A stretch of DNA of 9,799 nt from Candidatus Desantisbacteria bacterium CG1_02_38_46. Its GTDB lineage: Bacteria; Desantisbacteria; UBA1551; UBA1559. The stretch spans positions 1-9,799 of the forward strand of contig MNUO01000085.1 in NCBI GenBank assembly GCA_001871015.1, read 5' to 3'. A program made the translations under genes and the position numbers. Positions 1,682 through 9,000 of this stretch are shown here, in pieces. A model generated the notes under the pieces. That model was not told the origin of the DNA. It was given only the letters and a program-made list of their open reading frames with translations, and searched no databases. How positions within the stretch are numbered: position 1 is the stretch's first letter; each line of letters starts with the position of its first letter.

Positions 1682-1710
1682 GTAGTTTGTCGAGCAAGCT
1701 CGACTGCTAC
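1682..1710. repeat. Inverted repeat (hairpin) in the rnfC-rnfD gap
   Basis: A perfect seven-base stem, GTCGAGC and GCTCGAC around a two-base AA centre (1689-1704), is flanked by outer arms GTAG (1682-1685) and CTAC (1707-1710). The outer right arm includes the rnfC stop codon. There is no T-run after the stem on the transcribed strand, so it is not a standard terminator. It could be an mRNA processing or stabilising hairpin that sets rnfC against rnfD expression, or a small dispersed palindromic element. Its stem sequence differs from the repeat found inside rnfC and nrdD. Confidence 0.7.
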
Positions 1711-3077
1711 TTTTTAGCGGCTAACCGTGACTTTGCGTACTTGATCAAATGGATTAAAGGACGTCTTGAAGCACAGACATAAGCACATGCCCCGCATTCC
1801 ATGCAATCAAAAACTCCATATTCCTTGCACAGGTCAAAATTATCTGTTTCAGCGTAATCTCCAATGCGATTTGGCATAAGGGACATCGGGCAGCTCTCTA
1901 CGCACCTGCCGCATTTTATACAGGGACCCTCTGATTCTTCCTTTATATCTTTTAATACGAGAATGCCGCTGGTTCCTTTAACCACAGGCACATCCAGAGT
2001 ATATTGCGCAAGTCCCATCATCGGGCCACCCATAATTACTTTTGAGACGCCGTTTACAAATCCGCTGCAATATTCAATAACCTGTGAAAATGGAGTGCCA
2101 ATCCGGACACGCAGATTTTTAGGTTCTTTTATTCCGTTGCCGGTAACTGTAACAACTCTTTCAATCAAAGGTTTATCTGTCACAACCGCTTCATAAATAG
2201 CGAGAGCAGTCCCGACATTTTGTACAATTACCCCTACATCAAACGGTAAACCTGCACTGGGTACTTCACGGTTCAATATCGCTTTAATTAACTGTTTTTC
2301 TGCGCCCTGTGGATATTTTACTTTTAGCGGCACAACTTCTATGGAAATACCGTGTAAAGCGTCCCTCCCACCAACTTCATAGCTATGTTCTGCGTTTTCC
2401 ATTACCTTTATGGCATCCTGCTTGTTAGATTCAATACCAATGGATGCCCGATTAACACCTAAAACCTTTAAAATTATATTCAATCCTTCGAGTATCTGGC
2501 TGGTTTTTTCAAGCATCAGGCGATGGTCATTGGTGAGGTAGGGCTCGCATTCAACGCCGTTAAGTATTACTGTATCAATTTTTTTATCCGGCGCAGGAGA
2601 CAATTTCACATGGGTTGGAAATGCCGCTCCACCCAGCCCGACAATTCCCGATTCTCTTATCTTTTCCTTAATCTGTTTGGGTGTTAATTCTTTCCAGCTT
2701 TCTGTTTGCAGGCTCGGAGTACCCAGATGTAACATCGGGGGTCGTGCGGATACCTCTGCGGACTCAGGATTCTTCTCTATGACTATTGCCATTACATCCT
2801 TCGCTGATGCGGGGTGTGGACGGGGTTCAATTGCTGTAACCTTTCCAGAAATGCTTGTATGGACCGGTGCAGAAACAAATGCTTTACTTTCTCCGATTTT
2901 TTGACCTTCTTTAACTTCATCCCCGACTTTAACCAGTGGTTCGCAGGGCGCACCTGTGTGCTGCTGCAGGGGAATAATTACCTTTATGGGAACAGGCATG
3001 TCCTCTATGGGTTTTCCTTTTGTTAAATCCTTATATTGGGGTGGATGTACTCCACCTGGAAAAGTTTTCAATTTCAC
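1707..3077 (-). CDS. rnfC: RnfC, iron-sulfur subunit of the Rnf complex (NADH-side)
   Basis: RnfC is the peripheral cytoplasmic Rnf subunit where NAD(H) reacts; it carries two [4Fe-4S] clusters. The 456-residue translation opens with TFPGGVHPPQYK, typical of RnfC. A barrel-sandwich segment follows at about 35-85, then the GIVGLGGAAFP nucleotide-binding region (144-154), GVECEPY (174-180) and a C-terminal ferredoxin-like domain. Its cysteines fall in two CxxCxxCxxxC sets: 386, 389, 392, 396 and 425, 428, 431, 435. The start is GTG at 3077-3075, with AAGGTGA just upstream across the redoxin stop; the ATG at 3079-3077 is out of frame. The gene begins nine bases after the redoxin. Residues 112-120 (RPPMLHLGT) are encoded by a short palindromic repeat also found in nrdD. 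Confidence 0.95.
   Translation of the reverse strand: MKLKTFPGGVHPPQYKDLTKGKPIEDMPVPIKVIIPLQQHTGAPCEPLVKVGDEVKEGQKIGESKAFVSAPVHTSISGKVTAIEPRPHPASAKDVMAIVIEKNPESAEVSARPPMLHLGTPSLQTESWKELTPKQIKEKIRESGIVGLGGAAFPTHVKLSPAPDKKIDTVILNGVECEPYLTNDHRLMLEKTSQILEGLNIILKVLGVNRASIGIESNKQDAIKVMENAEHSYEVGGRDALHGISIEVVPLKVKYPQGAEKQLIKAILNREVPSAGLPFDVGVIVQNVGTALAIYEAVVTDKPLIERVVTVTGNGIKEPKNLRVRIGTPFSQVIEYCSGFVNGVSKVIMGGPMMGLAQYTLDVPVVKGTSGILVLKDIKEESEGPCIKCGRCVESCPMSLMPNRIGDYAETDNFDLCKEYGVFDCMECGACAYVCASRRPLIHLIKYAKSRLAAKK
2719..2742 (+). repeat. Short palindromic repeat, copy A, inside rnfC
   Basis: On the plus strand this 24-base stretch reads GTACCCAGATG, then TAACATC, then GGGGGT. It matches the minus strand of 5918-5940 in nrdD at 21 of 23 aligned bases, with one extra G. 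It is an imperfect inverted repeat: GATGT faces AACATC and ACCC faces GGGGGT. It encodes residues 112-120 of RnfC in the linker before the GLGG domain, a place where an in-frame insertion would be tolerated. It lies in the opposite orientation to its gene compared with copy B. Confidence 0.7.
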
Positions 3078-3086
3078 ATCTTCACC

Positions 3087-3389
3087 TTACTTATTAAGAT
3101 TAAGACTTCCTTCTTTTATTAAAGATTCGAAGTGAGGTTTAAATTCTTTTGATTCAACTGCCCGACCTTGCCATCGGATTAGTTCCTGCCCGCCTTTCTC
3201 AATGATAATTGCCGGGACATTTGTTGCATCCTGAAGTGCAGCTTCAGCGAGTCCATCCACAGTATCTATACTGTGATATTTAACCTCAACTCTGCCTGCA
3301 ATGTTCCAGTGCTCCAGAAATATCTTGAACTTCTCCTGCATTGACTTGCAGACATCGCAGGAATCCTTACCAAAAATCTTTACAACCAT
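3087..3389 (-). CDS. Glutaredoxin/NrdH-like redoxin, CxxC
   Basis: This is a 100-residue thioredoxin-fold protein. It starts with a beta strand (VVKIFG), then the dithiol site CDVC (residues 11-14) at the head of a helix. The cis-proline motif TNVPA (56-60, Pro59) comes later, so all core features of a small redoxin are present. The segment TVDGLAEAALQDATNVPA resembles redoxins often found beside anaerobic ribonucleotide reductase genes. Some class III reductases take electrons from NrdH-type or thioredoxin-type proteins instead of formate, so a role as NrdD reductant is a reasonable inference. Its strong Shine-Dalgarno GGAGGAG (3396-3402) lies in the last codons of the upstream endonuclease gene, six bases before the ATG. 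It could instead serve other thiol reactions. Confidence 0.8.
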   Translation of the reverse strand: MVVKIFGKDSCDVCKSMQEKFKIFLEHWNIAGRVEVKYHSIDTVDGLAEAALQDATNVPAIIIEKGGQELIRWQGRAVESKEFKPHFESLIKEGSLNLNK

Positions 3390-3392
3390 AAT

Positions 3393-4103
3393 TTACTCCT
3401 CCGGTGTTCTATATTCTAAATTAGATTCTCTAATGTACTTCCCTAATCTTGAAATTTCATCTATTTTGCCATTCTCCCAAAGATCCTTACATCTTTGTGC
3501 CCATTCAAGCATTGCTCTTGATTTTTTTAACTCATCTTTATAAAATAAGATTAGTTTCTCAAAGAAAATATTCATCCATTTTCCACGAGTCTGCCCACGA
3601 TTAACCATTATTGATTTTCCTGGGTCAATCTGAAGTTGACCATAACCCAATTTCCCAAAACGTAGACAAGACCAGCTAATCTGTTCTATAGGAAAAACAG
3701 ATATTTGTTTAAAAGTTATTGGTTTTATTTGATTGTTACGATTTAACTGATATTCTGCACTTACTATTATAAAGATGTTATTGGGCGAAGCGTAGAAGTG
3801 AATAAGGCGTTCTACTGATTTAATATTTGGCATATGAAACCCAGCTTCAACATTTTTTGTTTTGACATCAAAAGCAAAATATTTATCTCCTATAGTAAAG
3901 GCGACATCTTCAAATGACCGTCGAGTAAAATCTGTTTTGAATTGGCTGGATACTTCTCTGCAAATATCTGGAAAGTTTTTGGTAATTACCTCCTGAACTT
4001 TATCGCCTATAGACCTGGGGCTTGTTCCCATTTCATCAATTACAAAATTATATCCAGATAAAAACTTTTCAAGCGATTTTTCAATTTGAATGTAGATATC
4101 CAT
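3393..4103 (-). CDS. Probable type II restriction endonuclease (PD-(D/E)XK fold)
   Basis: I do not recognise the specific family. The call rests on position directly after a DNA methyltransferase gene and on a likely nuclease core. Numbered from the ATG, Asp66 (in FEDVAF) is followed twelve residues later by Asp79-Val-Lys81 (AFDVKTK), the spacing and form of a PD-(D/E)XK metal site. An early helix with Glu38 and a segment with hydrophobic strands (NIFIIVSAEY) fit that fold. At 236 residues it is typical of simple type II enzymes. The start is ATG 4103-4101; a TTG one codon upstream (4106-4104) is closer to the Shine-Dalgarno AGGAG (six against nine bases) and could be used. That Shine-Dalgarno sequence abuts the methyltransferase stop. 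The last codons Glu-Glu-stop form the redoxin's ribosome-binding site. The sequence is AT-rich. Confidence 0.72.
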   Translation of the reverse strand: MDIYIQIEKSLEKFLSGYNFVIDEMGTSPRSIGDKVQEVITKNFPDICREVSSQFKTDFTRRSFEDVAFTIGDKYFAFDVKTKNVEAGFHMPNIKSVERLIHFYASPNNIFIIVSAEYQLNRNNQIKPITFKQISVFPIEQISWSCLRFGKLGYGQLQIDPGKSIMVNRGQTRGKWMNIFFEKLILFYKDELKKSRAMLEWAQRCKDLWENGKIDEISRLGKYIRESNLEYRTPEE

Positions 4104-4117
4104 CAATATTTTCTCCT

Positions 4118-5041
4118 TTAGATAAGCAAATTTTCAATTTTATCTAATCTTTTGAGAGCAAGTCTAATATAATCTTTATTGACTTCGAAACCAATATAAT
4201 TTCTTCCAAGTTTTTTTGCTACAATGGCTGTAGTGCCAGAACCTAAGAAGGGGTCTAAAACCAAATTTCCCTCATTGCTGCTTGCCAAAATAATTCTTTC
4301 TAAAAGTTTTTCTGGTTTTTGAGTAGGGTGGGGTGTATTTTCTGGCATTGACCAGAATGGAACTACCATATCTACCCATATATTACTTGGATGGGTGTAC
4401 CGATATCGCTCACCGTTAACTTCAACCCAACCCTTTGGTTGTCCGCCTTTTCCTCCGTAACGATAAGGAGCAATAATTTCTTTTTTTATTTTTACATCTT
4501 CAATATTGAAAATATAATCCTTGCTTTTAACAGCAAACCAGATGTCTTCCATATTTTCTTTCCAATTTTTACTGGCTCCACGACCTTTTTCTCTTCGCCA
4601 GGTAATTCGATTTTTAACCATGAAATATTTTTCTAAAATTTCCTGAATCAATCCCGAAGATTCCCAGCCACAGCAAATATAAATTGAGCCATTTTTCTTT
4701 AAAATCCTTGCTGATTCTTTTATCCATTTTTCTGACCATTCTGCATATTGTTTTTTTGTTTTTGTTTTTAGTGTTCCATTGCCATAGTTTTTATCTACTT
4801 TATAATAAGGTGGGTCAGCAAAAATCAGATCAATAGAATCGTCCGGCAAACAACTCATTCCTTTTATGCAATCACCGAGGATTATTTTGTTTTTAACCTC
4901 AGCAATATCATCAACCTTTTCTTCTAAAGTATAGAAATTACTATATTTCTTGTAGTCTTGTTCTATCAAGAACAAAGTTCTATTTCGAGGTGCCGGATTC
5001 TGTTTGCCTAACATGATTGTACTGTTTGTTTGATTGTCCAT
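4118..5041 (-). CDS. DNA methyltransferase, beta class (probably N6-adenine), of a type II restriction-modification system
   Basis: This enzyme transfers a methyl group from S-adenosylmethionine to an exocyclic amino group in a specific DNA site, protecting host DNA from the adjacent endonuclease. The 307 residues show catalytic motif IV DPPY at 76-79 (LIFADPPYYK), a middle region likely to hold target recognition (about 140-225), HPTQKP at 238-243 (motif X region) and the S-adenosylmethionine motif I DPFLGSGTT at 263-271. The order IV, recognition region, X, I defines the beta class. DPPY favours N6-adenine, although beta enzymes with N4-cytosine activity exist; I cannot read the target site. 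It starts 17 bases after nrdD with a G-rich ribosome-binding site and ends 14 bases before the endonuclease ATG. Sample lines are near 27% GC against about 52% for a sampled rnfD line, suggesting acquisition by transfer. Confidence 0.93.
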   Translation of the reverse strand: MDNQTNSTIMLGKQNPAPRNRTLFLIEQDYKKYSNFYTLEEKVDDIAEVKNKIILGDCIKGMSCLPDDSIDLIFADPPYYKVDKNYGNGTLKTKTKKQYAEWSEKWIKESARILKKNGSIYICCGWESSGLIQEILEKYFMVKNRITWRREKGRGASKNWKENMEDIWFAVKSKDYIFNIEDVKIKKEIIAPYRYGGKGGQPKGWVEVNGERYRYTHPSNIWVDMVVPFWSMPENTPHPTQKPEKLLERIILASSNEGNLVLDPFLGSGTTAIVAKKLGRNYIGFEVNKDYIRLALKRLDKIENLLI

Positions 5042-5058
5042 TAATTACCCCCACCCCA

Positions 5059-8000
5059 TTACCCAAATTGATAATGCTGAACTGCTTTCTGGCGGTCTTT
5101 TAATTCTGCGAGTTTACTTTTATTCCAGTTGTTCACCTTTGAGAAATAACCGACGATTCGTGTTATTCCATAAGTGTTTTCACTTCCGCAATATTTGCAT
5201 TTTCCATTTATGCCTCTGTCCATTTTTGCACAATCATTGCAAATTGTGAATTCAGGAGAAATTGTCAGTTGAGCGCATTGCGTATTTTCCCAGGTTTTTC
5301 TGACGAGATTCTCTATGCTTTGAGCAGAAGGTTTGGATTCTCCTACAAACGCATGGATGATTGCTCCACTTTCAATAATTGGATGAAATTTGCTCTGCTT
5401 AATGATTCTGTCTATGAAGTTTACTGGAGCGCTTGCGGCAAAGTGAATTGAATTTGTATAATAATGTGTATCGTTTTTAATGTCTCCCTTTACAACTTCT
5501 TTGCTCTGGGGAAATTCCCTTAAATCTACTTTTGCAAGCCGTCGTGCCGCGGATTCAGCAGGAGATTCTTCAAGTGCAATGTGCAACTTATACTTTTTCT
5601 GGAACTCATGAGTTTTTAGATACATAAAAGAAATTATTTTCATTCCGAAATTGAAGGCTTCATCATCTTCGTGGAGTTGTTTACCGGTGAGGTATTGTAC
5701 GCACTCATTCAATCCGATTATCCCAATAATATAGGTAGCTTTTTCGAGGTCAACATATGGTTTTCCATCGCAGGCATTCTTTCCAATCTGCCATAATGGT
5801 GTACCAGGGGCAGACATCAACCTGCCAATGAATTTCTTTTTTTCAAGGTGTGCCTTCATTGCTAATTCCATTGCTGTATTAACTTCTTCAAATACCTTAT
5901 TTATATTTTCTTTACTCACCCCGATGTTGCATCGGGGTACCCGATAAGCACACTGAGGTAAATTGATGGTGACATTCTGAAACCCGCAGAAACGCATTGA
6001 TTCCGGATGTCTGAGCATTTCTGGATTACTAACTTTGGTTCTCAACCGGCAACAATTACTTCCATAAATTCCTTCTGGCAGAAGAAAACCGTGTTTTTCA
6101 TCATCTACTTCAAAATCATAAACATAACCATCATAATCAGCATGGCTAACTTCTTTTACCTTTAAAAAATGCATTCCATTATTTACCTTTTTTGACCACT
6201 CATTTTGAGGATAGTATTTTTCAAAGTAGTCGAGATGATTCCTCGATGCTCTACGGAGTTGGTATTTTAAAATACCGCCTGCCTCATCCCAATTAATTCC
6301 CATTTCTTTAGCTGGAAGAAGTCGCCATAAACTATGTGAATCTGAGGGATTTTCTCCCTTATAGGGTAAACCCCAACCTACTTTCTTTAAATCAGTATTA
6401 GCAATTCTTACATGATAAGAATCTAACATTTGTTTTCTATTCCGTGGATTAGGAGCTAATGCTTTTCTAATCGTAGAATTAATTCCTAAATTTCTTAAAA
6501 GAGCTTTTATGTCCCGGGACAAACCAGAAGAACCGAGGTGAAAAGTTACTTCTACAGTAGTAGATCCTTGTCGGGTATACCCATCTCCTTCCAGGAATCC
6601 TTTAATGAAAGATTTTTTAAATTCTTCAGTAACATTAAACATGAGAGAAGTTAATTCTTTATTACGAGCAGACCCTCCTTTAATAAATAATGAAATAAAC
6701 CAGGCAAGAATCTTGGAAGAAGTTACCACTTTTCTTGATTCCCATTTCTTAGAATCGTCAAACCAAATGTTACTTCCAAATACATCTCTTACTGTTCTGG
6801 AAATGAAATTTGCTAATTCTTTTTCCTTCCGTGATAAGGAAAAACTGACAGAAGTTTTATTTGTATAACCCTCCGCTAAATATAGACCTAAAAATCTTCC
6901 AATCCGGGGAGATAAGTAGATTTTAGAAGGCATACGGACAAATTTAGTGTGCCCATATCGATAAATTAATTTTGCATTGGAGGGATAAATTCCTTCATTA
7001 TACAATAGCCATGCGGGGTATCTATATTTTTCTTTCCATCCAGAATTCCAATGTTTTATTCTATCTTTTGAAATTTGATATTTCTCATTAATATATTTTG
7101 TTTTTAGATGTAAACTTTCATCAAAAACAGCTTCTATCTTGTCATTTTTTTGTTTCCAGGCCTCACCCATTAAATCTATCTCAGTAATTGGAGTGTCATC
7201 TAATTTAGGTTTTGTAACTTTATTAATAGGAACAAAATCTTTTTCTGTTAATTCATCAGCTCTTTTTCTGATCAGCAGACCATTTTTAAGAACAAAAAAT
7301 GGATGGTCTGGAGTAACAGAGATTTCAGTTCCATCTTCTAATTTTACATTACAAATTTTCCCTTCATATTTGCGTCTTAACATCTGTTTTATATAAACTA
7401 AATTTGTTTCCCCATCATTATTAATACTGAGAGTTCGATAATAATCCTTGGGAGGAACTTTCCAATATTCCAATCCTTCTATTTCTTCCTGTCCTTTTAT
7501 CAAATCATAAACTTGAGAAATATTTTCGTATACATACTTATTACTGTTTTTAATTAAAACTTTAGTATTTTCTGTAAAACATTGCGAAAGCGTAGCGCCA
7601 TTTCCACGGTCAAAAACAAAATAAGGGCTGCCGTTATAACTCGCTGCCTCGCAGGCAAATTTGAATAATTCATATTGCTTTGGGTCAGAAAAACTTTGTG
7701 CATTAATGTGAAGGTCGCACTTTGGAAATGAGAAAGGATGTCCATCTCTGTCTCCTTCTTTCCACACTTCTATCAAAGCCCGGGCAAACATTTGCGATTC
7801 ATTTTCAAATTTTCCATAGGTCTTGTCCAGATATTTTCCTCCGCTTCCGATAGCAGTAACATCTTTAAGATAATCCGGTACTCCAAGATGTATATTTGCA
7901 TCTAAAAATAGGCTTTGTCCGCCCCTTGAAAAAGCATTTTGCGAGCCACTGAAAAGTAAATATTGAGCTTCCTGTTTCATTTCTTCATAAGACATCCCTT

Positions 8001-9000
8001 GAAGGAACGGAGCATATAAAATATTCAGGAATCCAATTCCAAGCGCTCCAGCATAGTATGCCTGCATTGAAGCAAGATAGGTATTTAAGTGTCCTGTAAG
8101 TGTGCGTGCATGTTTTGCAGGTGCTGATGAGGTTCCAAGGTTATCGAGAACCAATCCGTACTTTTTTAAATATTCTACAGAATGGCTTGAACAATAAATT
8201 CTCGGGTACCCTAAGTCATGAATATGAATTAAACCAGTTAAGTGTGCAGTGGAAACATCTTCGGTAAAGACTTCCTCCAGCAAGTATTGTTTTAAAGTAT
8301 TTTCAGCAATTGATAGGTTTATTGCCTCAGGATTATTTGCGGATATGTTGGAGTTCTCCTGACTCTTGGAATAAATGAGTTCTCTAAGGTCGTAAATTGA
8401 CATTCCAATTACCTGCTGTGATTTAAGCCTGTTGTTGAATCCATGAGTAAGTAATTCAATATCCACAAATTCGCGAATCAGTGATGTAGTAAGTTTCTTC
8501 AGTCCTGTGGCGATAATTTTTTCTTCAACGCTGCGTGCAATTTTCTCCGCGATATTATGGGGAACTTTGGCTTCCTTTACCAGCGCCAGTGTAATTTTGG
8601 ACTTATCCCATGGAGAAATTTCATATCGGCTTGGAGCGGCAACAAGCAGCGAGAGGTCGGTTGTTCCGCTTTGCCCTCTTATTTCTTTGTGTACTTTCAA
8701 CAACTGGCGAATCCTTGCACGTTTATCACGATAAAGTATATATGCCTTTGCTGTTTTTGCGCAACCTTCTTCAATTAAAACTTTTTCTACAACATCCTGA
8801 ATATTTTCAATGCCAGGAATGCGATGGGCAAATTTCTTCTGCAATATTTCTATGACCTTGTCTGCTAATTTGTTCGAAACATCTTTTTTCTTTCCTCCAA
8901 CAGATTTTGCCGCTTTAAATATTGCCTCAGCAATTTTTGTTTTATCAAAAGGAACAACCCTTCCATCCCTCTTTTTAGCCTCTTTTATTACGCTTGACAT
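5059..9000 (-). CDS. nrdD: Anaerobic (class III) ribonucleoside-triphosphate reductase NrdD, intein-containing precursor
   Basis: NrdD reduces ribonucleoside triphosphates to deoxyribonucleotides without oxygen, using a glycyl radical made by the radical-SAM activase NrdG. The precursor is 1313 residues; removing the intein (474-982) leaves 804. An N-terminal ATP-cone spans about 3-100 (KKRDGRVVPFDKTKI). A second, cone-like stretch at about 117-205 (PWDKSKITLALVKEA) precedes the ten-stranded barrel. The catalytic Cys-Cys-Arg-Leu motif (983-986) lies directly after the intein. The C terminus has the zinc cysteines 1254, 1257, 1268 and 1271 and the glycyl-radical motif RIVGY (Gly1284). An excellent AGGAGGT lies four bases before the ATG. 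It follows nrdR by 19 bases. Residues 1021-1028 (VPRCNIGV) derive from a short repeat and look like a small insertion. No nrdG is seen. Confidence 0.96.
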   Translation of the reverse strand: MSSVIKEAKKRDGRVVPFDKTKIAEAIFKAAKSVGGKKKDVSNKLADKVIEILQKKFAHRIPGIENIQDVVEKVLIEEGCAKTAKAYILYRDKRARIRQLLKVHKEIRGQSGTTDLSLLVAAPSRYEISPWDKSKITLALVKEAKVPHNIAEKIARSVEEKIIATGLKKLTTSLIREFVDIELLTHGFNNRLKSQQVIGMSIYDLRELIYSKSQENSNISANNPEAINLSIAENTLKQYLLEEVFTEDVSTAHLTGLIHIHDLGYPRIYCSSHSVEYLKKYGLVLDNLGTSSAPAKHARTLTGHLNTYLASMQAYYAGALGIGFLNILYAPFLQGMSYEEMKQEAQYLLFSGSQNAFSRGGQSLFLDANIHLGVPDYLKDVTAIGSGGKYLDKTYGKFENESQMFARALIEVWKEGDRDGHPFSFPKCDLHINAQSFSDPKQYELFKFACEAASYNGSPYFVFDRGNGATLSQCFTENTKVLIKNSNKYVYENISQVYDLIKGQEEIEGLEYWKVPPKDYYRTLSINNDGETNLVYIKQMLRRKYEGKICNVKLEDGTEISVTPDHPFFVLKNGLLIRKRADELTEKDFVPINKVTKPKLDDTPITEIDLMGEAWKQKNDKIEAVFDESLHLKTKYINEKYQISKDRIKHWNSGWKEKYRYPAWLLYNEGIYPSNAKLIYRYGHTKFVRMPSKIYLSPRIGRFLGLYLAEGYTNKTSVSFSLSRKEKELANFISRTVRDVFGSNIWFDDSKKWESRKVVTSSKILAWFISLFIKGGSARNKELTSLMFNVTEEFKKSFIKGFLEGDGYTRQGSTTVEVTFHLGSSGLSRDIKALLRNLGINSTIRKALAPNPRNRKQMLDSYHVRIANTDLKKVGWGLPYKGENPSDSHSLWRLLPAKEMGINWDEAGGILKYQLRRASRNHLDYFEKYYPQNEWSKKVNNGMHFLKVKEVSHADYDGYVYDFEVDDEKHGFLLPEGIYGSNCCRLRTKVSNPEMLRHPESMRFCGFQNVTINLPQCAYRVPRCNIGVSKENINKVFEEVNTAMELAMKAHLEKKKFIGRLMSAPGTPLWQIGKNACDGKPYVDLEKATYIIGIIGLNECVQYLTGKQLHEDDEAFNFGMKIISFMYLKTHEFQKKYKLHIALEESPAESAARRLAKVDLREFPQSKEVVKGDIKNDTHYYTNSIHFAASAPVNFIDRIIKQSKFHPIIESGAIIHAFVGESKPSAQSIENLVRKTWENTQCAQLTISPEFTICNDCAKMDRGINGKCKYCGSENTYGITRIVGYFSKVNNWNKSKLAELKDRQKAVQHYQFG
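5918..5940 (-). repeat. Short palindromic repeat, copy B, inside nrdD
   Basis: The plus strand carries nine-base perfect arms ACCCCGATG and CATCGGGGT around a TTG loop (5918-5938), followed by AC. Read on the minus strand it matches 2719-2742 at 21 of 23 bases. It encodes VPRCNIGV (residues 1021-1028), just after the conserved NrdD strand NVTINLPQCAYR. From memory of the family, relatives go from that AYR to a shorter linker, so about eight residues look added in frame. A hairpin in the mRNA is also likely. Confidence 0.75.
6055..7581 (-). mobile_element. Intein with LAGLIDADG (DOD) homing endonuclease inserted in NrdD
   Basis: The element encodes residues 474-982 (509 residues), which should splice out of the NrdD precursor. 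The N-terminal junction is Gln473|Cys474, with block A CFTENTKVLI. Block B has Thr563 and His566 (SVTPDH). The endonuclease motifs are FLGLYLAEGY (block C, acidic Glu710) and FIKGFLEGDGY (block E, Asp806). Block F is YVYDFEV with His970. Block G is GIYGSN, ending in Asn982, followed by Cys983 as the +1 nucleophile. All key residues are present except the usual second-last His, which is Ser981. Splicing would rejoin LSQ to CCRL at the NrdD active site. The endonuclease would spread the intein into intein-free nrdD alleles. The region is AT-rich (one sampled line 22% GC) compared with the flanking extein (one sampled line 38%), fitting transfer. Confidence 0.95.

Follow-up and report, generated by a model that had tools for sequence, protein, structure and literature searches.

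A short palindrome found inside two unrelated genes of Candidatus Desantisbacteria bacterium CG1_02_38_46 is, in our judgement, a dispersed, non-coding element that is capable of insertion. We put the probability of this reading at about 0.8, a figure that applies to dispersal by insertion and not to any enzyme. The two copies were noticed on a contig of 9.8 kb (9,799 nt, referred to below as the window) from the draft genome of this bacterium (1.73 Mb); copy A lies in rnfC and copy B in nrdD (Table 1). We favour insertion because the palindrome is present in many copies, is patchily distributed among related genomes, is missing from orthologous sites that are exactly 21 nt shorter, and in places sits nested within other repeats, and we infer that the 21-nt unit is mobile. 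The genome used for comparison was that of the nearest relative, Candidatus Desantisbacteria CG1_02_49_89, which belongs to the same order but to another family.

An earlier note on this DNA had described a repeat shared by rnfC and nrdD at 21 of 23 bases. Its two sites were correctly placed, but the identity is lower, since the reverse complement of copy A matches copy B at 20 of 24 positions, at 20 of 23 over the span given in that note and at 20 of 22 over the core; the opposite orientation of the copies relative to their genes, which was also pointed out, means little for a palindrome. Copy B is indeed a hairpin, its 9-bp arms perfectly paired around a TTG loop (ACCCCGATG-TTG-CATCGGGGT), with a folding energy of -9.7 kcal/mol (z -4.1) as single-stranded DNA. 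Copy A is an imperfect palindrome with two mismatches to the search pattern and a folding z of -0.5, and the consensus of both copies is ACCCCGATGTNACATCGGGGT. As two matches were found in 9.8 kb where 0.00 were expected from 200 dinucleotide shuffles, the matches in the window are not due to chance. It could nevertheless be supposed that the two copies merely resemble each other by accident, or that they are ordinary lineage-specific loops; in favour of this, all relatives vary in the RnfC linker, and shuffled sequence folds just as well as copy A. We consider this extremely improbable, given the shuffles, the 18 copies in the genome against none for the control, and an nrdD orthologue that lacks exactly the element. 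Chance on its own was rejected on the evidence of the shuffles, the reversed pattern and a control palindrome.

The genome search suggested in the earlier note bore out its expectation of many copies. At three mismatches or fewer the genome of CG1_02_38_46 contained 18 copies and the reversed pattern none; a looser core gave 27 copies, and a still looser search 52 against 12 for the control. In CG1_02_49_89 there were 43-44 copies, and most of 57 further sampled genomes were at background level. When about 85,000 species genomes were scanned for the 19-mer, matches were seen to cluster in a few metagenome-assembled genomes. Counts over whole genomes were 31 and 28 copies in the planctomycetes Yes70-35 and NC_groundwater_1514, 64 in Brocadiaceae Hainich-H41-bin252, 43 in Elusimicrobia UBA5214, 30 in Chloroflexi KW1-S21_197 and 15 in the unclassified STD1_102, with 0-1 in control genomes. 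A control hairpin of equal composition, CCCGTAGTTACTACGGG, gave only 0-3 matches in the same carrier genomes, and therefore it is the sequence that matters and not palindromy alone. All three planctomycete-type carriers fall within a single class, in which 5 of 23 genomes had 4-27 copies and the other 18 had none; within the family of Hainich-H41-bin252, the comparison was 27 copies against 0. Because these three share a class, we count at least four phyla in which the palindrome is established, Desantisbacteria included, the phylum names being those of the record titles. The patchy presence is a pattern of gain and loss. Among all viral contigs searched there was one exact match, inside a phage-type gene and probably a chance one, and viral carriage was rejected as an explanation.

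Comparison of genes with their orthologues in CG1_02_49_89 revealed insertions of defined size. The nrdD genes are 82% identical, and ours has a net gain of 21 nt at the element; hisC and mrdA each have seven additional residues (net 21 nt) at theirs, so that an identical 21-nt step is present in three unrelated genes. It follows that the element was aptly described beforehand as a dispersed palindrome able to insert into coding sequence, since copies occur elsewhere and all three orthologues lack the insert. The residues previously assigned to it (VPRCNIGV in NrdD and PPMLHLGT in RnfC) are those encoded, but the addition of about eight residues becomes seven in NrdD. The alignment with relatives that had been proposed was clear for nrdD, where CG1_02_49_89 has neither the repeat DNA nor the residues, but the rnfC linker is too variable for an insertion to be timed or sized. 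This linker, between RnfC_N and Complex1_51K, varies among relatives, as had been noted; the solved chains 7zc6 and 9eri lack 10-12 residues around the site, and in rnfC of CG1_02_49_89 (L140) a different repeat, GTGGACCGTTGACCGTGGACCGTCGAC, occupies the same linker, which therefore appears to gather insertions. The exact size of the insert likewise could not be resolved in the pyrK-like gene, gltX, the pepQ-like gene and pgsA, as both genomes vary at the site.

The range of host genes with in-frame copies, assigned by family models, is wide. Further hosts in CG1_02_38_46 include topA, ispG, dapF, gltX, pgsA and genes for an Xaa-Pro peptidase and a dihydroorotate-dehydrogenase electron-transfer-like subunit; those in CG1_02_49_89 include dnaE, tmk and genes for a lipoamide acyltransferase, a sulfatase and the CCA-adding enzyme; and in other phyla copies were found in leuS and in genes for NAD kinase, Mfd, Fmt, NuoL, UbiA-type and amidohydrolase proteins. 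Relatives of solved structure lack residues around the insert in the case of LeuRS, NAD kinase and IspG. Many other copies are intergenic, several of them near tRNA genes in CG1_02_49_89.

The core of the element is a perfect 19-nt palindrome, CCCCGATGTNACATCGGGG, within an insertion unit of 21 nt. Its anatomy was assessed on 32 copies from CG1_02_38_46 and 38 from CG1_02_49_89, with the sequence context taken from stretches around each copy. Symmetry spans nine positions on either side of the centre and then drops toward chance, with a hint of a tenth in CG1_02_38_46. At positions +/-8 and +/-9, C:G and T:A pairs replace one another with pairing kept, in both genomes and beyond what shuffles give; the copies had been picked by core similarity and not by pairing, and the sequences are related to each other. 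This covariation of the arms supports selection on the hairpin but does not prove it. Whichever central base is present, the 21-mer has stop codons in no more than one of its six frames, and three peptide readings are found, PDVTSG, PRCN/YIG and PMLHRG. Because the same DNA gives proteins different peptides, it is the DNA and not the peptide that is the spreading unit; a functional peptide was ruled out by the unrelated peptides that arise from the different frames.

Stable folding and covariation would also be expected of a functional RNA hairpin, such as a transcription terminator or an mRNA-stability element gained by some genes, and the many intergenic copies, including those near tRNA genes, fit such a role. 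Against it, copies in several phyla sit far inside the open reading frames of essential genes, there is no T run at the window copies, and 18 of the 23 genomes of the one class do without the palindrome. A search of the window with Rfam found no family, by which a known RNA family was discounted. We conclude that a function of this kind is improbable.

A larger repeat, GTCATTGCGA-[CCCCGATGTTACATCGGGG]-GAAGCAATCT, encloses some of the copies, which make up its inner hairpin. In this larger repeat (GTCATTGCGA...GAAGCAATC) the inner hairpins are exchangeable, and CCCGCCAGTCATCATGGCGGG, GGGCAGAGCCC or short loops are found in the same place elsewhere; similar composites occur in the sulfatase gene of CG1_02_49_89 and at Dehalococcoidia and Elusimicrobia loci. 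A GTAG-tagged repeat, GTAGTGGCAGAG...CTCTGC, directly adjoins the palindrome in topA, dapF and ispG. Flanks that pair beyond the 5% control threshold were present at 6 of the 32 copies in CG1_02_38_46. Nesting is thus real in single cases and is no general rule.

Other small hairpins, and other settings of the palindrome, were also seen. The genome of CG1_02_38_46 is rich in small hairpins, with further palindrome families CAGGACTTTAGTCCTG and GCAGAGTAAACTCTGC, some in tandem (at loci such as L001:2540-2620 and L169:220-340). At a Calescamantes locus (L091:5992-6333) a good RNase P RNA has this palindrome as its helix P3, and other helices carry CCGAT/ATCGG hairpins; this may be coincidence, as P3 is a hairpin in any case and that genome has only five copies. 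At two loci from two phyla (L109:350-440 and L092:2330-2370) the palindrome occupies the anticodon-arm place of a tRNA-like sequence. Neither ARAGORN nor Rfam calls a tRNA at these two sites, and for this reason insertion into tRNA is not claimed.

In the account that we favour, the hairpin would be recognised or copied in single-stranded DNA, and new copies would be placed either by a trans-acting HUH/Y1-type transposase or by replication-linked hairpin transfer. Intragenic copies could persist, since an insert of 21 nt does not shift the frame and introduces few stops, and purifying selection would spare only insertions into loops and linkers that tolerate them. The peptide that the insert encodes would have no function of its own. 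Selection of the same kind has been argued to leave intragenic repetitive extragenic palindromes (REPs) in linkers or loops (PMC3733652).

Several observations weigh against insertion of a mobile unit. No insertion was caught in the act, the closest comparison genome being from another family; no target-site duplication of constant form could be made out at the copies, and at the nrdD junction microhomology makes such a duplication undecidable. In CG1_02_49_89 none of the 38 copies had flank pairing over the control threshold, so that nesting does not extend to that genome as a rule. Finally, at 25 Y1 transposase loci examined in carrier genomes no near-consensus copy lay beside the gene, and one carrier, the Chloroflexi draft genome with 30 copies, gave no Y1 match.

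The last two findings bear on the possibility that the palindrome is an untagged REP, moved in trans by a REP-associated tyrosine transposase (RAYT) or other Y1 (IS200/IS605-like) enzyme that acts on the single-stranded hairpin. REPs are palindromes of 20-60 bp linked to RAYTs (PMC3116915). Y1 genes are present in CG1_02_38_46, in CG1_02_49_89 and in five of six other carriers tested, and the GTAG-tagged repeats that adjoin the palindrome in some genes are REP-like. By analogy, a Y1/HUH transposase would be the strongest candidate for the mobiliser. However, the window copies carry no unpaired GTAG tag, and where GTAG was found nearby (5 of 32 copies in CG1_02_38_46 and 2 of 38 in CG1_02_49_89) it was in several cases part of a neighbouring, distinct repeat. 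Together with the Y1 loci this puts the REP explanation at appreciably less than even odds.

The main alternative to such an enzyme is replication-linked hairpin transfer, in which spread would come from template switching or from end-joining of hairpin-tipped strands, and quasipalindrome correction would maintain the arms. Covariation at the arm ends, nesting at the tips of other hairpins, the swappable inner hairpins of the larger repeat and the lack of association with a transposase are all consistent with it. Taken alone, however, it would not account for a 19-nt core that recurs across several phyla when the control palindrome does not, nor for a net gain of exactly 21 nt at three unrelated sites, and we consider it less likely than not.

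The remaining features of the window are collected in Table 1. By family models it contains the end of an rnf operon (FMN-binding protein, rnfD and rnfC), a DNA methyltransferase, nrdD with an intein, and nrdR. The intein of nrdD has a LAGLIDADG domain, and the reading frame is 1313-1321 residues long compared with 798 in CG1_02_49_89, so the orthologue probably has no intein, judging by that length. Between rnfC and nrdD (3393-5041, minus strand) lie two genes, one for a DNA methyltransferase (N6_N4_Mtase) and one for an unrecognised protein of 237 aa that is likely to be its restriction partner. In CG1_02_49_89 only about 440 bp separate rnfC from nrdD, and the two intervening genes here would therefore seem to be a restriction-modification pair that was inserted. 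A different palindrome supplies, with its GTAG, the stop codon (TAG) of rnfC, and stop codons of this origin have been described for GTAG REPs (PMC3733652).

Table 1. Host genes and palindromes of the window.
Feature	Position	Strand	Basis or reading
Host gene rnfC	1707..3077	-	Pfam RnfC_N, Complex1_51K, SLBB, Fer4; PDB RnfC matches
Host gene nrdD (anaerobic ribonucleoside-triphosphate reductase, with intein)	5059..9000	-	Pfam NRDD, ATP-cone, Intein_splicing, LAGLIDADG_3
Copy B, perfect palindrome ACCCCGATGTTGCATCGGGGT inside nrdD	5918..5938	.	In-frame reading (V)PRCNIG(V) on minus strand
Copy A, degenerate palindrome ACCCAGATGTAACATCGGGGG inside rnfC	2721..2741	.	In-frame PPMLHLG(T) on minus strand; linker between RnfC_N and Complex1_51K
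Different short palindrome with GTAG/CTAC ends, GTAGTTTGTCGAGCAAGCTCGACTGCTAC	1682..1710	.	Sequence

Rickettsia is the best-known source of palindromic repeats read in frame within essential genes, and there they are commonly discussed in connection with reductive intracellular life. Here the same behaviour is seen with a unit about one fifth of the size, in groundwater and subsurface metagenome bacteria of several phyla, and therefore in-frame repeat insertion is not peculiar to parasites. The palindrome appears to rank among the smallest kinds of spreading DNA repeat known so far, and its 21-nt size, its entry into essential genes and a core common to several phyla are notable. A unit that is frame-neutral and nearly stop-free would explain simply, and in a way that can be tested, how coding sequence comes to be colonised by repeats; being small and well defined, it could also serve as a substrate in the search for a mobilising enzyme. 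For annotation, it should be borne in mind that such inserts mimic lineage-specific protein loops. A bolder proposal, which we think doubtful as matters stand, is that this is a minimal mobile hairpin of about 21 nt, moved laterally between phyla of subsurface bacteria by some activity and writing in-frame peptides into essential proteins; if true, few known mobile DNAs would be smaller, and this one would be shared between phyla.

A literature search that covered part of the literature found no paper on this palindrome. The nearest precedent in behaviour is the Rickettsia palindromic element (RPE), and the earlier note, whose interpretation as a dispersed inserting palindrome was largely right, had called the repeat similar in style but much shorter. 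The in-frame behaviour and the difference in size both hold, but the likeness is functional only and implies no kinship. RPEs are palindromic repeats that lie in frame within conserved housekeeping genes and also between genes, most being about 100-150 bp long (PMC10969869, PMC2229807). Our palindrome resembles them in its in-frame insertion into conserved protein genes (nrdD, hisC and mrdA), and differs in a 21-nt unit of unrelated sequence, RPEs encoding a longer peptide; a long palindrome of RPE size with terminal inverted repeats was not found at the copies, where palindromy ends at +/-9 to 10.

Intragenic GTAG and CGTC REPs are known from many species, in genes for DNA synthesis and tRNA synthetases; the CGTC repeats, to which RPE-4 and RPE-6 belong, have stems of 8-9 bp and no dedicated transposase, and untagged REP-like families occur in other bacteria (PMC3733652). 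The palindrome shares with these a single palindromic unit of similar size, intragenic copies and, with the CGTC repeats, the lack of a dedicated transposase, and at 19-21 nt and 18-27 copies it falls among multi-copy palindromes of the 20-60 bp kind, as GTAG REPs do. It differs in its stem sequence and in a core that is near-identical across phyla. CGTC, like GTAG, is absent from the window copies; elsewhere it adjoins or overlaps 4 of the 32 copies in CG1_02_38_46 and 11 of the 38 in CG1_02_49_89, there within a paired GTCCCG arm. Because both tags are absent from the window copies, we have not filed the palindrome with either group. REPINs are miniature palindromic DNAs thought to move in trans, and consist of paired inverted REPs, RAYT-linked and almost wholly extragenic (PMC3116915); ours consists of one palindrome, is frequently intragenic and has no RAYT adjoining. 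Of the marks of a miniature inverted-repeat transposable element (terminal inverted repeats, a target-site duplication and a matching transposase), no matching transposase was found at the 25 Y1 loci, and microhomology at the nrdD junction would mask a duplication.

In size, the closest parallel is with the small dispersed repeats (SDRs) of cyanobacteria, reportedly described by Elhai et al. in 2008, which lie mainly outside protein-coding sequence. Like these, the palindrome is a dispersed unit of about 20-27 nt with empty sites; individual copies also lie inside other palindromes, with flank pairing over the control threshold at 6 of 32 copies in CG1_02_38_46 and at none of 38 in CG1_02_49_89. 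Unlike SDRs, it has another sequence and occurs in other phyla. SDRs are dispersed repeats of about 20 nt that may be mobile (PMC2884548), and SDR5 inserts precisely within the HIP1 palindrome (PMC4390886). We conclude that the palindrome behaves as an RPE or an intragenic REP does, at the size of an SDR.

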